A stretch of 64,000 nucleotides of DNA from Synechococcus sp. Tobar12-5m-g (GTDB lineage: Bacteria; Cyanobacteriota; Cyanobacteriia; PCC-6307; Cyanobiaceae), in assembly GCF_024345415.1 (NCBI RefSeq), contig NZ_JAGQBB010000002.1:62001-126000 (forward strand), given 5' to 3'. Shown one piece after another: positions 8,372-59,655 of this stretch (its first letter is position 1; each line of letters starts with the position of its first letter). The notes below the pieces were generated by a model. That model had not been told where the DNA came from. It was given only the letters and a program-made list of their open reading frames with translations, and did not search any database. The position numbers and the translations under genes are program-made.

Positions 8372-9916
8372 ATGCCCCACCTGCTCCATTCCCTCCTGCA
8401 TCAGATCGGAGCGGAGATCCCTGCTGGCCTGGCCGATGGCGAGGTCACCGGAATCAGCTGTGATTCCCGCCGGATCGCCGCCGGCGCCCTGTTCATCGGA
8501 CTGCCGGGTCACAACGTCGATGGCGGGCTGTTCTGGCCAGCGGCCATTGCGGCCGGAGCGGTGGCCGCCGTCGTCACCCCGGAGGCGGCGGCGGCGCAAC
8601 CGCCTGGGGCGGGGGCTCCCGTGCTGGTGGTGCGGGAGCCCCTGGCAGCCTGGGCCGGGCAGCTGGCCGCCGCCTTCTGGCAGGAGCCAAGCCAGCGCCT
8701 GGCCCTGATCGGGGTGACGGGAACGAACGGCAAGACCACCACCACCCATCTGATCGAACACCTGGCGACCGCCTGCGGGCGGCCAACGGCCCTGTTCGGC
8801 ACCTTGATCAACCGCTGGCCGGGGCACAGCGTCACGGCGTCCCACACCACGGCCTTCGCCGATGTGCTCCAGGCCCAGCTGGCGGCGGCAGCGGCAGCTG
8901 GCAGTGCGCTGGCCGCTATGGAGGTGAGCTCCCACGCCCTCGACCAGGGTCGGGTGGCAGGCTGCCGTTTCGCCGGGGCCGTGTTCACCAACCTCAGCCA
9001 GGACCACCTCGACTACCACCCCTCGATGCAGGCCTATTTCGAGGCCAAGGCCGAGCTGTTCAGCACGCCGCTGCTGGCTGGATCGGTGGTGGTGAACATC
9101 GACGACCCCTGGGGAGAGCAGCTGGCGGACCAGCTGGCAGGGTCCCTGGGCGCGCGTCTCTGGCGCAGCTCCTTGAACTCAGCCGCCGCCGAGCTGCGGA
9201 TGGAGGATCTGTCGTTCGGCGCCGATGGCGTGAGCGGCACCCTGTGCACGCCGCTGGGCAGCGGTTCGTTCCGATCGCCCCTGGTGGGGCGCTTCAACCT
9301 GATGAACCTGCTGCAGGCGGTGGGGGTGCTCCAGCAGCAGGGGCTGGCCCTGCCCCAGCTGCTGGAGGCGATTCCCTCCTTCGGTGGGGTGCCGGGGCGG
9401 ATGGAGCGGGTGTTGCCAACGGGTCCCCTTCCTGCCGGGCCAGATGCAACGGCCCTGGCCCTGCCGGCCGTTCTGGTCGACTACGCCCACACTCCCGACG
9501 GACTGGAAAACGCCCTGGCCGCCTGCCGGCCGTTCACCGCTGGCCGCCTGATCTGCGTGTTCGGCTGCGGTGGCGACCGCGACCGGGGCAAGCGGCCCCA
9601 GATGGCGGCGATTGCGGCTCGGCTGGCTGACCGGGTGGTCGTCACCTCCGACAACCCCCGCACCGAAGATCCCCACTGCGTCCTTGAAGACGTGGTGGCG
9701 GGGATTCCGGCCGGCACGGATCTGGTGGTGGAGGCGGATCGGGCCACGGCGATTGCCCGGACCATCGCGGCCGCAGGCCCCCGGGATCTGGTGCTGATCG
9801 CCGGCAAGGGCCATGAGGACTACCAGATCCTCGGCACCACCAAGATCCACTTCGACGACCGGGAAGAGGCTCAGAAGGCTCTGGGGGCGCGTCGCATCGA
9901 AACGCGGCTTGTTTAA
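8372..9916 (+). CDS. murE: UDP-MurNAc-tripeptide (meso-diaminopimelate) synthetase
   Basis: A 514-aa Mur ligase adding the third amino acid to the peptidoglycan precursor UDP-MurNAc-L-Ala-D-Glu with ATP. The ATP-binding loop [14 protein letters not shown] is near residue 115, with the carbamylated-lysine region and [13 protein letters not shown] further on. The DNPRTEDP motif carries the DNPR signature of enzymes that take meso-diaminopimelate rather than lysine. Length is normal, and the start ATG 8372 matches the family. The stop codon lies inside a perfect 12-bp palindrome, TTGTTTAAACAA (9909-9920). Confidence 0.97.
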
Positions 9917-10000
9917 ACAACGACGCAAGCTGCCCCGGTGACATCGTCAGCGCCGAGAGGGATGTCACAATCCAACGGTTACGCAATCCTTCGATTTCGG

Positions 10001-54421: not shown

Positions 54422-54479
54422 GTCCGAGACCTTCCGCGCCTCGACCCCGGGGTAGATCACCTTGACGCCGCCCTCGCCC

Positions 54480-55016
54480 TTCGACTTGCTGACGGGCAAC
54501 CAGCATCCCCACAACTGCCAAGCGGCCCTGGATGGAGACCGCTAGAAGATCGTGGGGATCGGCGTGAGCAACCAGCCGCTGGATGTGGAGCATCTGGAAC
54601 CGGTGCTGGAGCACACGATCGCCAACCCAGATCAGGCACCCCAGGCATTCATTGCCTATGCGGGCTGCTGGGGTGAGGACAACGCCATGTCCGCAGCCGA
54701 GCGGGGCGTGGATCCCCCCATTCCCTCCGGCCGAAGGAAGCACGGCCAGCCGCCGCCACCATCCAGCGCCCCGATCCCCAATAGAGCAAATAGGCGAAGA
54801 TTGGGTCGCAAGCAAGTTTCTCAGGAACAAAGGCTCGGCATCAGGCGCCTTCCCCTAGGCGGGCTGGAGAAGATGAACGAACAATGGATGGCTTGGTGCC
54901 TCACTGACAACATCAAAATGTTGCCCCTGTTCCGCAGATTGCCGACGGTTGCCTTAGGCGGAAGGCCTCCGCTGCCGGTGCGGGAGCCGATGATCCTCTG
55001 GGGTCAACGGGAGTGA
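54480..55016 (+). pseudogene. Decayed transposase, IS1182-like
   Basis: One reading frame carries transposase pieces: NQHPHNCQAALDGDR, an in-frame TAG (54543-54545), KIVGIGVSNQPLDVEHLEPVLE, AFIAYAGCWGEDNAMSAAERGV, SGRRKHGQPPPP, and after an apparent deletion GLEKMNEQWMAWCLTDNIKML. These match the conserved middle (YNAQAAVD, ADAGYWSE, GR.KHG) and C-terminus (GLEKV..EW.LIC..HNLLKL) of IS1182-family DDE transposases. The usual DAG reads YAG, so a catalytic acidic residue is lost. The N-terminal third is missing. No terminal inverted repeats were recognised. Confidence 0.78.
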
Positions 55017-55171
55017 GCTGCCCACCGCAGTGCTCATCGACTCAGCGAGTGCTGGTGCTCAGTTTTGGGAGGCGGTTCAGGAGACAAACTCCTAGGCTTA
55101 AAGTGCCTGGTGGAGGGAGCAAGGCTTACAAAGTATTTGTTCAGGAAGATCTCCAGACAGGGGTGAGGAGG

Positions 55172-56314
55172 ATGGAGACCGTATGGGTTCAAGATTCGAT
55201 CCTGCAGGTGACCAAAGCGGTGGCCTCGCGGGCGGCAGGGCTGCTGATTCGTGATCCTGCCGTTGATCCGCGCTGCCCCGACTCATCCGACCTCGACTTT
55301 GTCGTGCTAGCCGACATCGCTGAGATGCGATCCGAACGCCTGTCGCTGGTCACCGCTGGTGCCGGTCCGGTCTTGGCTGACCTGACCTGGTTACCCTGGG
55401 CCTGGGTGGTCAACCCCGAGGAGGCCGCAACGCGAGGCTGGGTGCCGCACCGGCTGCTCTCCTCAAATGTTGTTTGGGACGAGGGTCGAGAGATCGCCAC
55501 GTTGTGCGACGCGATTGCGCAACATATGGCCCGCCCCGAGATACAGAGCCGGCGTGTCTCAGTATTTCTCGACACCGGCTTCCAGGCTGTGCGCGAAATC
55601 GGCATCACCTGGGACTTCCCAGCGCTGGGGATGTTCTGGCTGCACATGGCTTATGCCGCATGTCTGGCCGCGCTCGCGGATGGTTTGCACATGTTGTGCC
55701 CGAACATCTTCACACGGCCGTTCGACCATCTCGACAGGGTGGAATTGAACGGTCACCCCGGCCTGCGCCTTCGCTGGATTGAGGCGCTGCGCCTGGACGA
55801 CGAACTCGAGCCGCTGGTCGAGCGGCTGCTTCGCTGTCACGCGCTGATGTCCAGTCGATTCCCCGAACCATGCTGGCCCGCCTCCATTAGAGAAGGGGTG
55901 CGCTTTGAGTACCGTTACTGGGTGTCGCACCAGGAGTTGGCTTGGCGGATTCGCACGGCCCGTGAACTCGCCTTGCGTGGTGACTGCGCTGCAGCGGTTT
56001 TCCACCTGCGCTTTTGCGCCTATGCGGTGGCTCGGCTGCCGGTGGTGCATGAGCGGGCCCTGGAAGGCATCAGTGGGTCCTTTCTGCGGCCTGAGAAAGC
56101 CATGCTGCCTGATCTGAAGCGCCTGGCGCCCGAGATCATCGACGACCTCAGCCTGATGCTCGCCGGCCCAGGAGCGCTGCTGGCGAGTAACGTAAAAATA
56201 AGCATAGATAATCTGCTTGAATTCCGTGATAATGTCTGCGCGAGCCTTATTGCTCAGGGGATACCGATCGCGCCGTTGAAGACCTGGGCTCCCTATCAAG
56301 TCGTCATGCCCTGA
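55172..56314 (+). CDS. Nucleotidyltransferase-like protein, first gene of the island operon
   Basis: About 380 aa, not a known family to me. Residues ~1-90 look like a divergent pol-beta-type nucleotidyltransferase: a helix, a strand AAGLLIRDPAVDP where GS normally stands, then SSDLDFVVL with the DxD pair D40/D42, and a possible third acid D70 in LADLTWLPW. The remaining ~290 residues are mostly helical (REIGITWDFPALGMFWLHMAYAACLA). ATG 55172 is preceded by GAGG; in-frame GTG codons at 55103 and 55013 would lengthen it into the transposase relic. An AT-rich stretch near 56200 is unlike the host DNA. The next gene follows by 18 bp. Confidence 0.7.
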   Translation: METVWVQDSILQVTKAVASRAAGLLIRDPAVDPRCPDSSDLDFVVLADIAEMRSERLSLVTAGAGPVLADLTWLPWAWVVNPEEAATRGWVPHRLLSSNVVWDEGREIATLCDAIAQHMARPEIQSRRVSVFLDTGFQAVREIGITWDFPALGMFWLHMAYAACLAALADGLHMLCPNIFTRPFDHLDRVELNGHPGLRLRWIEALRLDDELEPLVERLLRCHALMSSRFPEPCWPASIREGVRFEYRYWVSHQELAWRIRTARELALRGDCAAAVFHLRFCAYAVARLPVVHERALEGISGSFLRPEKAMLPDLKRLAPEIIDDLSLMLAGPGALLASNVKISIDNLLEFRDNVCASLIAQGIPIAPLKTWAPYQVVMP

Positions 56315-56332
56315 TCCACAAGAGGAAACTCC

Positions 56333-57937
56333 ATGTCAAATCTGAGCGAAGTCTGCACCCTCTGTAAAGCCGAGATTAACAGCGCGTTTACAAACCCGCG
56401 CCCCCCTGCAGTCAACATCGGCCCAAACCAGCATGTTTCTGGTCCTTGTTTCGTGGCTGACGAAATTGTCTTTACCGGCACCAGCCGCTTGATCTTCGAC
56501 ATCAACCTCGAGAGAGACGAGTATGCCGTGATTTGCCGCAAGTTGACGATCAGCGGCGGCGGCAAGCCCGGCAACCTCAACCCCTGCAACCCTGGCGATC
56601 CTGGCACGCGTTACAACACCAACGTCATCACTTGGGACCTCCGCCTGAAGTCCGCCGCCGCCGGCCCGGACGTCAATCCGCCCGCTGCGGCGGCCAGCGG
56701 CAACGACGACGGAATGCCCGGCAAGAATGGAATCCCTGGCAATCCCGGCAAACCCGGAGTGGACCTGCGCATCGGTGGAGAGAAAGAGAAGCGGCCGATC
56801 AAGCTGGTCATCGTTGCGCTCCAGGTTGAGGTGATCAACGGCGGCAACCTCGTGATCGATTGGGCTGGCCAGGACGGCGGTGATGGCGGCAAGGGCCAGA
56901 ACGGGGGCAAAGGCAACAAGGGCACGAAGGGCAACGATGGCGAGGATGAAAGCTGGCCCAGCAGCGGCTGCGACATCGGCACCGGCACCGGCGGCGAAGG
57001 CGGCCCGGGTGGCGCCGGCGGTGAAGGTGGCCCCGGCGGCAAAGGCGGGGACTCGGGTCAGCTGGTGATCGTCAGTCTGCCCGCCCTGATGGCATCGACT
57101 GGTGTCTTCAACGACCCGTCCCGGATCACGCTCGTCACCCAGTCCTACGGCGGCAAGGGCGGTCCCGGCGGGCGCGGCGGCGATGGTGGCCCCGGCGGCA
57201 ACCCAGGCAAGGCTACTAGCGAATGCGGCGTCGGCCAGCCGGGCATCAAGGGCACTTCCTTCGTGGCGCTGGCCGCGAGCCAGGGCGCGGCCGGCAACCC
57301 CGGTGCTGCTCTGACGACGCAGTTCGAAGTCATCAAGGCGGAGTGTGCCACTTCGCTGCCCGCGCCGCTGATCTTCGATAGCAGCAATGTGCTGCCGCGC
57401 GACATCCGACGCTGCTTCTCGGGTGCGGCCACCGACACCATCACCCTGACCGGCAGCTATCTGGACCAGGTCGTTGCGGTCGGTTCGAACCTCACCGGAG
57501 TGACCGCGACCATCAAGCCGGCGAGCAACGACACCCAACTGGTGCTCGAGGTCACCGCGGCGGCCAACTCCGGCTCGGGCCTCGGCGACCTGGTCTTCAC
57601 TTACCTCTTCCCGGGCGCATCCGCGACTCAGAAGCTTTCTGGAGCCATTAGGATTGGAGTGTGTACCCTCACCGGCGTCTCAACGTCCAGCGGCGCCCAG
57701 GGCACCACGGTCCCCAACTTCACGGTCACCGGAACGTCCTTTGACGTCAGTGCGGCGTCGCACGACATCGTGGTCAGTGGCAACGGCGTGAATGCGGTGA
57801 ATGTCCAGGTTGTGGACGAGCAGACCATGAAGTGCGATCTCGTCATCGAGAACAACGCCACCAAGACCCAACGTTCGGTGACGGTGAAGGCCGGGACATG
57901 CCAGCACACCCTGCCGAACGTCTTCACGGTGACCTGA
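56333..57937 (+). CDS. Collagen-like Gly-rich protein with C-terminal Ig/TIG-like domains
   Basis: A 534-aa protein with no visible signal peptide (MSNLSEVCTLCKAEINSAF). Residues 30-110 are beta-rich with four cysteines. Gly-X-X tracts follow at 127-142, 180-203, 220-241 and 273-305, alternating with short hydrophobic strands (KLVIVALQVEVINGGNLVIDW; GQLVIVSLPALM). Two C-terminal domains (~345-440 and ~443-534) show IPT/TIG-like Ig patterns (TITLTGSYL; TLTGVSTSSGAQGTTVPNFTVTGTSFD). A strong AGAGGA ribosome site precedes ATG 56333. Role unknown; a structural or adhesive product, or a carrier for the enzymes beside it, is possible. Confidence 0.75.
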   Translation: MSNLSEVCTLCKAEINSAFTNPRPPAVNIGPNQHVSGPCFVADEIVFTGTSRLIFDINLERDEYAVICRKLTISGGGKPGNLNPCNPGDPGTRYNTNVITWDLRLKSAAAGPDVNPPAAAASGNDDGMPGKNGIPGNPGKPGVDLRIGGEKEKRPIKLVIVALQVEVINGGNLVIDWAGQDGGDGGKGQNGGKGNKGTKGNDGEDESWPSSGCDIGTGTGGEGGPGGAGGEGGPGGKGGDSGQLVIVSLPALMASTGVFNDPSRITLVTQSYGGKGGPGGRGGDGGPGGNPGKATSECGVGQPGIKGTSFVALAASQGAAGNPGAALTTQFEVIKAECATSLPAPLIFDSSNVLPRDIRRCFSGAATDTITLTGSYLDQVVAVGSNLTGVTATIKPASNDTQLVLEVTAAANSGSGLGDLVFTYLFPGASATQKLSGAIRIGVCTLTGVSTSSGAQGTTVPNFTVTGTSFDVSAASHDIVVSGNGVNAVNVQVVDEQTMKCDLVIENNATKTQRSVTVKAGTCQHTLPNVFTVT

Positions 57938-57968
57938 GCAGGCCTGGCCGCCCCCGGAGGATCCTGCC

Positions 57969-59063
57969 GTGATCGCAGGGAGCGAGGCCGCCGCCGTGCG
58001 TTCGATCGAGCGCGCGGCGGCCTACCTGCTAGCGCAGGCCGTAGGCCACTTTGCCGAGGCGGCGCACGAGATGAACTTCTTGCACCGTGCTGGCTTCACG
58101 GGCCTGGCCGAGCGGCAGTCTGGCGACCTGTTCGCCCGCGCCACGCTGGCCCACCTTTTCCTGGACATTGCCGGCGCGCTGCCTCAAGCGTCCTTTGCAC
58201 AGGAGTTCCAGGCCATCGCACGGCACGAGGCCGACGCGCTGGCCGCACGCAGGCTGGCCCATCGCCGCGGCGGCTGGAGCTACTTTCCCGGGCTGCCCGA
58301 GTTGCCGCCCGACGCCGACAGCCTGGCCGCCGTGCTCTCGCTGTTCGTGCGCATTGCCCCTGAGCTGACCCCCCTTTGCGAAGGTGCTGTCGATGCGGTC
58401 ATTGCCGGCACGCACCCCGACGGTTCCTTCGAAACCTTGATCGTCGCACCCGAAGATGACGGCCGCGAACGCATGCTCTGGGGCATCCGCCATTGCTGGG
58501 GCAGCGGCAGAGACGTGGACGTGGTCGCGCACTTCTGTCATGCGCTCTGGCTTTGGGCGCCCGAGCGCCACATTGAGCGGGCACGCCAGGGTGCACGCTA
58601 TCTGCTTGATCAGCAGCGGCCAGACGGCTCCTGGCAGGCCACCTGGTACGTCGGTCCGGCCTATGGCACAGCACTCGCCCTGAGGTTGCTGCGCGAGACC
58701 GGCCTTGGCGTCACTGCCTCAGAACGGGCCGTGAGATTCTTGCTCGCCAGCCAGCAGACCGATGGTTGCTGGAGCGTGGGCCCTTCGGGCTCTCTGCAGA
58801 CAGCGCTGAGCCTGCTTGCTCTCGGCGAAGCCGACATTGACCTTACCCATGGGGCGATGCGGCGTGGATGCGAGGCCCTGGTGACACGCCAGCTCGCCGA
58901 CGGCAGCTGGCAGGCTTCGCCCTGGATCCGAATGGAGATCGGCCGCGCCACCGGCAGAACTCTTGCCATCGCTACTTATAAAAGTGTGACCGTGACAACT
59001 GGCTTCTGCCTGCGAGCCATCGCCTTTGCTCAAGCACGGATGAATTCAGCTCTCAGCCAGTAG
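57969..59063 (+). CDS. Short alpha/alpha-toroid protein, squalene/terpene cyclase-like
   Basis: A 364-aa helical-repeat protein with the QW-type motifs of prenyltransferase/squalene cyclase repeats: QRPDGSW (216-222), QQTDGCW (262-268), QLADGSW (308-314), plus GGWSY (101-105) and HPDGSF (149-154). PPDADS (113-118) sits where class II cyclases have DxDD, and RDVDVVAH (181-188) is another acidic motif. At half the length of squalene-hopene cyclase it may be a small terpenoid cyclase-like enzyme or a binding protein. GTG 57969 has GGAGG 8 bases upstream and lies 31 bp after the collagen-like gene. Confidence 0.75.
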   Translation: MIAGSEAAAVRSIERAAAYLLAQAVGHFAEAAHEMNFLHRAGFTGLAERQSGDLFARATLAHLFLDIAGALPQASFAQEFQAIARHEADALAARRLAHRRGGWSYFPGLPELPPDADSLAAVLSLFVRIAPELTPLCEGAVDAVIAGTHPDGSFETLIVAPEDDGRERMLWGIRHCWGSGRDVDVVAHFCHALWLWAPERHIERARQGARYLLDQQRPDGSWQATWYVGPAYGTALALRLLRETGLGVTASERAVRFLLASQQTDGCWSVGPSGSLQTALSLLALGEADIDLTHGAMRRGCEALVTRQLADGSWQASPWIRMEIGRATGRTLAIATYKSVTVTTGFCLRAIAFAQARMNSALSQ

Positions 59064-59069
59064 AGTAGT

Positions 59070-59580
59070 GCGTGGCGCACAAGTTCAAGCCGATCGGAAT
59101 CGAAGAACACAGCATCTCCGATGAACTCAGAGGGGGGCGTCGAAGCCAGTTGGGCGAGAAACTTCGACTTTGCGATCACTCTTGAACGGTGGAGAAGCTT
59201 CCCCGCCGAATCGTGCGCTCCGTGATGATCCCGAACCAGCGCTCCAGCTGCTTGAGGCAGAATGCGTAGGTCGGCAAGGAAGCGGGGCCGCTGCGCTAGC
59301 CAGTCCCAGAACAACGGTTCAGTGGAGAGTTAGCAGCCATCAAGCTTCCGCGCAGCCGTGACTCTCTTGCCGGTGGGGCTGCAGTGGATTTGTTCTGCAG
59401 AGCCCGGTTGCTCCCATCAAAGACCTTTTCCTCCTTGTCGATGCGAGGCCGACCCGGCCTGAGCTCGTCATGAAGCCCCTCCAGACCGACGCCCATGCGC
59501 AGGGCGCTCGTAGTCGGCAGTGAGCGTGAGTTGGCAATGGTCTGCCTGTGCTGAGTCTCGTTGTCCCTGAGAACCAGCAG
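59070..59580 (-). pseudogene. Decayed IS630-family transposase
   Basis: The reverse strand holds two recognisable ends of an IS630 transposase in different frames. Near 59490-59450 is GLEGLHDELRPGRPR, the linker after the N-terminal HTH. Near 59270-59195 is QLERWFGIITERTIRRGSFS, the conserved C-terminal block, followed at once by a stop. Roughly 100 or more central codons with the DDE residues are missing and frames shift repeatedly. The 590-bp space between the toroid gene and the LD-carboxypeptidase gene holds nothing else I can identify. Confidence 0.8.
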
Positions 59581-59655
59581 TAGTATCGGTCGACCAACAG
59601 TTATGGATGTGATGTAACGGCCATCTTGGAAGCCATTAGATTTTTTCGATTATTT

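Follow-up and report, generated by a model that had tools for sequence, protein, structure and literature searches.

A single-domain class II terpene cyclase with a DxDS motif in a three-gene cassette of foreign character in Synechococcus

Introduction

Can a protein of 364 amino acids whose catalytic motif ends in Ser instead of Asp be a working class II terpene cyclase, and, if so, on what does it act? This question is raised by a gene in the window, namely the whole 64,000-nucleotide stretch of Synechococcus sp. Tobar12-5m-g analysed in this study. In class II cyclases, the central Asp of the DxDD motif is established as the general acid, and in squalene-hopene cyclase (SHC) a His serves as the hydrogen-bond partner that orients the acid Asp. 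A preliminary description, made from the sequence, regarded the product as a half-length cyclase-like protein that may be either a minimal class II cyclase or an isoprenoid-binding relic.

Results

The cyclase ORF (57969-59063, forward strand) uses GTG as the start codon, with GGAGG just 5' of it. The encoded protein was matched by Pfam SQHop_cyclase_C (E=1.3e-13) and TIGR01787 (E=1.4e-16), with scores far under the cut-offs of TIGR01507 and TIGR01787, and its top PDB sequence match was 8pak (E=2.5e-12, aligned residues 82-323). Judged from these sequence matches, its homology to the squalene/terpene cyclase families is far above chance. Five QW-like repeats had been described previously; when the canonical pattern (Q-x2-5-G-x-W) was applied by eye, three were canonical, ending at W222 (58581-58634), W268 (58719-58772) and W314 (58857-58910), all on the forward strand, and the other two were degenerate. 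A weak second match (L002, E=3.6e-4 over 78 aa) was observed in the same genome.

The AlphaFold model of the cyclase, built with an alignment of 18 cyclases (A2), had a mean pLDDT of 93.3 and a pTM of 0.93. In VIA-align, this model matched 8pak (Z 35.2, 327 residues, 2.7 Å), 8paj (Z 35.2), six MstE entries (Z 33-34) and 6ij1 (Z 32.6), with 310-327 residues aligned throughout; the matches to 8pak, 8paj and MstE (Z 33-35) cover residues 1-358. The two-domain squalene-hopene cyclase gave a Z of about 30, below the single-domain matches. The single-domain group has lengths of 346-367 aa (6ij1, 346; 8pak, 361; 8paj, 365; MstE, 367), and the window protein is a full-length member of it; therefore, the term "half-length" holds only against two-domain squalene cyclases. 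The suggestion of a minimal class II cyclase was borne out for fold and family by the model and the structure matches, although this architecture is already known from enzymes of the MstE/8pak type. We are nearly certain that fold and family are those of a single-domain class II terpene cyclase, and the enzyme is likely to be catalytically competent.

The PPDADS motif (58305-58322, forward strand) occupies residues 113-118 (D115, A116, D117 and S118) and lies at the DxDD site, as the preliminary description had it, with the DxD core kept, the last Asp replaced by Ser and the central Asp intact. In the 18-cyclase alignment, D115 and D117 are invariant (18/18), and the third motif position is Asp in 16 sequences and Ser only in the window cyclase and in that of locus L014. 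The stretch PPDxD(D/S)LA is the most conserved one in the aligned cyclases, and so a lack of conservation of the DADS segment among homologues, which had been considered beforehand, was not what we found. Among solved single-domain cyclases, the nearest ones (8pak and 8paj) also read DADS(T). In AstC, DxDT replaces DxDD in an active enzyme whose middle Asp is the acid, with Asn as the hydrogen-bond partner orienting it (PMC13244436), and DxDTT enzymes are likewise active (PMC9128629). Since 8pak and 8paj share these letters, and AstC with its DxDT and the DxDTT enzymes are active, the DADS sequence appears compatible with catalysis, and the motif by itself does not make the protein a relic.

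Two further positions differ from the family. H188 (58530-58532, forward strand), which aligns with the His of the SHC 'DVTAH' segment, is, by column count, Arg in L014 and Asn in 16 of the 17 relatives. Position 157 is Leu in the window cyclase and Trp in all 17 others. Most other family-invariant positions are retained. Read from the alignment, the remodelling of the active site is real, as S118, H188 and L157 all depart from the family. The kind of enzyme is known, its active site is partly remodelled, and its genetic setting is unusual.

Concerning this setting, the cyclase gene belongs to a cassette of three genes on one strand. It is preceded by a nucleotidyltransferase-like gene and a gene for a glycine-rich (Gly-rich) protein, which are separated by a gap of 18 bp; the latter ends 31 bp upstream of the cyclase. 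The cassette lies in a 5.2-kb island of foreign character (54422-59655) that reaches from ispD to an LD-carboxypeptidase gene. The GC3 of the cassette genes is 0.70-0.80 versus 0.85-0.92 in the neighbours, and their codon fit is poorer. In three congeners, the island is absent at the same site, and ispD and the LD-carboxypeptidase gene are about 10-20 bp apart, as judged from where the alignments end, and no part of the cassette lies between them. Thus, the island was either gained here or lost by the others, and its foreign composition favours gain. The cyclase was not found in any of the 298 other genomes searched from the order.

Several other readings were rejected: a defence system, as there was no PADLOC match; a phage-borne copy, as no relative was encoded on any viral contig; and a plasmid-borne copy of the island, as no DNA match was found. 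The flanking ispD and ubiA were also rejected as pathway evidence, because the congeners without an island have them at this position too. The left flank (54511-54781) shares 66% identity over 271 bp with C30:12039-12309 of the same genome; this repeat is a possible insertion-element remnant, and an ORF there gave a weak DDE transposase hint (E=0.3). The right flank (59064-59655) is the least GC-rich part (0.574) and holds no recognised gene.

The nucleotidyltransferase-like ORF opens at 55013, and a strong ribosome-binding site is present at the ATG at 55172; the protein probably starts there and comprises 380 aa (55172-56314, forward strand). Its putative assignment comes from reading the signature SSDLDFVVLAD...GPVLADLTWL by eye. 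No relative besides the window itself was returned by Pfam, NCBIfam, PDB, plasmid, viral or phylum-wide searches, and the sole relative of this orphan (55013-56314) that was found is a degraded copy in L014.

The middle gene (56333-57937, forward strand) encodes a glycine-rich, collagen-like protein of 534 aa with a non-Gly-rich C-terminal part, and is the candidate modified partner. Among all ORFs of the fetched loci, Gly-rich ORFs were found at nine loci including the window, each adjoining the cyclase and none elsewhere. Exactly one Trp is present in eight of these nine proteins, in the context C[DG]WxSxC in seven and NAWPSGD in L018, and we infer that this one residue accepts the prenyl group. 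Of the three Trp of the window protein, W208 (56954-56956, forward strand) in ESWPSSGCD is comparable to both contexts and is a candidate acceptor; it is not singled out among the three, and the low-complexity alignment is unsure. No leader was recognised in the window protein.

A scan of 84,980 species genomes for cyclase relatives yielded 17 loci, which span Cyanobacteriota, Bacteroidota, Chloroflexota, Pseudomonadota, Actinomycetota and others. Five relatives (L003, L013, L015, L017 and L024) are fusions of the cyclase with a class I isoprenoid-synthase-like domain, in which Q207, D210, D211 and D214 of QMxDDxxDW are invariant. The Gln sits just before the second Asp-rich motif, a place where Gln is reported to mark Trp recognition in trans-IDS-like peptide prenyltransferases (PMC13290415). 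Polyprenyl synthetase domains are recognisable in L006 and L008, and the fused N-domain of L018 gave a weak Trp_DMAT match (E=0.0065). At eight loci (L012, L016, L019-L023 and L025), a separate protein of ~340 aa (A3) adjoins the cyclase. Pfam gave no significant match to it, and its fold became visible only by modelling, as an ABBA barrel of five beta-beta-alpha-alpha units (pLDDT 90.7) whose top PDB matches (E about 1e-11, TM about 0.77) were bacterial 5- and 6-dimethylallyltryptophan synthases. The partner folds are the two described for ChrPC and NctPC. As for isoprenoid genes at homologous loci, prenyltransferases are encoded with the homologues. In the genomes of the window and L014, we found neither an ABBA-type prenyltransferase (profile A3, with no positive control in the same run) nor a ChrPC-like one (profile A4, positive control E=1.6e-136).

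Other genes also recur at these loci. A conserved cluster of cyanobacteria and Bacteroidota (L012, L016 and L019-L023) comprises a single-Trp Gly-rich protein, the ABBA-type protein, a small CxxC protein, one or two PhyH dioxygenases and the cyclase; in several clusters, the PhyH-type dioxygenases and the CxxC protein lie between the Gly-rich gene and the cyclase. A giant protein of ~2550-2765 aa is encoded downstream of the cyclase at L012:13428-21095, L016:11051-19327 and L020-L023, that of L016 being RHS-like/DUF6443, and at L019 its place is taken by a protein of 881 aa containing an eCIS_core domain. Directly 3' of the prenyltransferase-cyclase fusions of L003, L015, L017 and L024, a homologous protein of ~410-440 aa is found, with a weak Peptidase M50 match in L003; L017 and L024 further share an upstream radical SAM protein and a TPR protein.

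The locus of Mangrovimicrobium sediminis (L014) carries an intact DxDS cyclase, which is the sister of the window cyclase in the tree (96/94). The pair persisted after dropping the motif columns (95/91), so that a pairing driven by the motif itself was rejected. A degraded nucleotidyltransferase-like gene is present at L014:9321-9656, where residues 180-234 are joined to 371-433 and an in-frame stop occurs; at about 9867-9920, a match to the C-terminal end of the Gly-rich protein was detected, with 2 of 2000 shuffles as good. Both remnants lie upstream of the cyclase in cassette order, the Gly-rich one directly before it, and the order is therefore common to two phyla. This shared order and the foreign composition speak for horizontal transfer of the cassette.

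Discussion

By fold and family, the window protein is a complete single-domain class II cyclase in a three-gene cassette that was probably acquired horizontally, and we propose, with a probability of roughly 0.45, that it modifies a prenyl group on the Gly-rich partner. Going by known class II enzymes, a polyprenyl chain lying in the barrel cavity would be protonated by Asp117 at its terminal double bond, and rings would then form through a cation cascade. With less certainty, the relatives suggest that the chain would reach the enzyme not as a free diphosphate but as a prenyl group that an aromatic residue, most likely a Trp of the adjacent Gly-rich protein, already bears. The product would be a protein carrying a polycyclic terpenoid anchor.

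By analogy with the relatives, the cyclase may have as its substrate an isoprenoid that is bound to the Gly-rich partner, a tentative assignment that we place slightly short of even odds. The prenylated Trp is the weakest step of the model, because no partner prenyltransferase was matched and the nucleotidyltransferase-like protein has no family match. The change of W157 to Leu, S118 and H188 being off the family pattern, the lack of a recognisable prenyltransferase in the genome and the three Trp of the Gly-rich protein also count against the model, in which the nucleotidyltransferase-like gene has no place.

Comparison with known systems helps to place the enzyme. Merosterolic acid synthase MstE (Moosmann et al. 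2020; PDB 6sbb-6sbg) has the same single domain of ~360 aa and matches over the whole length of the fold (Z 34), with about 20% identity, and is more distant in sequence than 8pak. It acts on a small prenylated dihydroxybenzoate (geranylgeranyl-dihydroxybenzoate), and the deposited complexes hold a prenylated aromatic acid. The 8pak and 8paj entries ('squalene-hopene cyclases' of Cystobacter fuscus and Archangium gephyra) are the best match in both sequence and structure, with the same length, DADS(T) and about 25% identity; our literature search found no paper on them. To our knowledge, MstE has no Gly-rich or nucleotidyltransferase-like partner. Squalene-hopene and oxidosqualene cyclases share the class II catalytic domain and the QW repeats, but they have two domains, >600 aa and DxDD, whereas the window cyclase has one domain, 364 aa and DxDS. 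We class the window protein with the single-domain class II terpene cyclases.

NctPC and ChrPC are maturases of ribosomal peptides in which a prenyltransferase is fused to a cyclase; they prenylate Trp, and cyclisation of the chain follows (Hubrich et al. 2024, as summarised in PMC13290415). Prenyltransferases of the same two folds are fused to relatives of the window cyclase or stand beside them, a likeness of folds drawn from this summary description. Unlike these maturases, the window cyclase stands alone in a genome without a recognisable prenyltransferase of this type (profiles A3 and A4), and its neighbour is a 534-aa Gly-rich protein as opposed to the short precursor peptide summarised for NctPC and ChrPC. 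As the partner prenyltransferase was sought in the genome and not found, the protein was not filed among the maturases.

The same result is relevant to the view that the enzyme is a class II cyclase of small molecules, acting on a free polyprenyl diphosphate or a prenylated aromatic metabolite, with the Gly-rich and nucleotidyltransferase-like genes as passengers or later-acting functions. MstE, with its small prenylated aromatic acid, is among the closest folds, no peptide prenyltransferase was found by profiles A3 and A4, and a ubiA-type prenyltransferase is encoded nearby. However, 8pak is closer in sequence than MstE, the ubiA gene is ordinary chromosomal DNA in congeners, the cassette order with the Gly-rich gene recurs in L014, and Gly-rich genes are present at eight other cyclase loci. 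We consider this view rather unlikely, although worth keeping in mind.

The remodelled active site could also mean that the DxDS lineage lost proton-initiated catalysis and now provides an isoprenoid- or lipid-binding or otherwise reprogrammed protein, as S118 and H/R188 changed jointly, together with L157 in the window, at otherwise fixed sites. That no recognisable prenyltransferase partner is left, and that the other two cassette genes decayed in L014, would fit such a loss. Nevertheless, both Asp of the DxD core and most other family-invariant positions are kept, 8pak and 8paj carry the same DADS letters, H188 aligns with the His of the SHC DVTAH segment, and the cyclase ORF is preserved in the two lineages, in one of which its neighbours have decayed; loss of catalysis is therefore unlikely. 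An origin as a fragment or degenerate copy of a conventional squalene-hopene cyclase, as the squalene cyclase families named by Pfam and TIGRFAM might suggest, is hardly tenable, since the single-domain fold is complete with a confident model over the whole length, relatives of equal length occur across phyla, and the genome search gave no second Pfam squalene-cyclase C-domain match.

Returning to modification of the Gly-rich partner, a bolder version can be put forward, in which the DxDS lineage, with His or Arg for Asn, would place a polycyclic terpenoid on a collagen-like protein from a mobile cassette with the nucleotidyltransferase-like enzyme. The latter, or an unrecognised enzyme, would then supply or activate the isoprenoid instead of the usual prenyltransferase. 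We regard this version as quite improbable.

Conclusions

Should the Gly-rich protein prove to be what the cyclase acts on, the range of cyclised terpenoid modifications would widen beyond short ribosomal peptides and take in large collagen-like proteins; in the literature searched, no description of terpenoid lipidation of such proteins was found. In cyanobacteria and Bacteroidota, the recurring combination of a single-Trp Gly-rich protein with a cyclase and a Trp-type prenyltransferase offers directly testable loci, namely L012, L016 and L019. Further, the DxDS lineage is a natural test of the role of the third motif position in single-domain class II cyclases.
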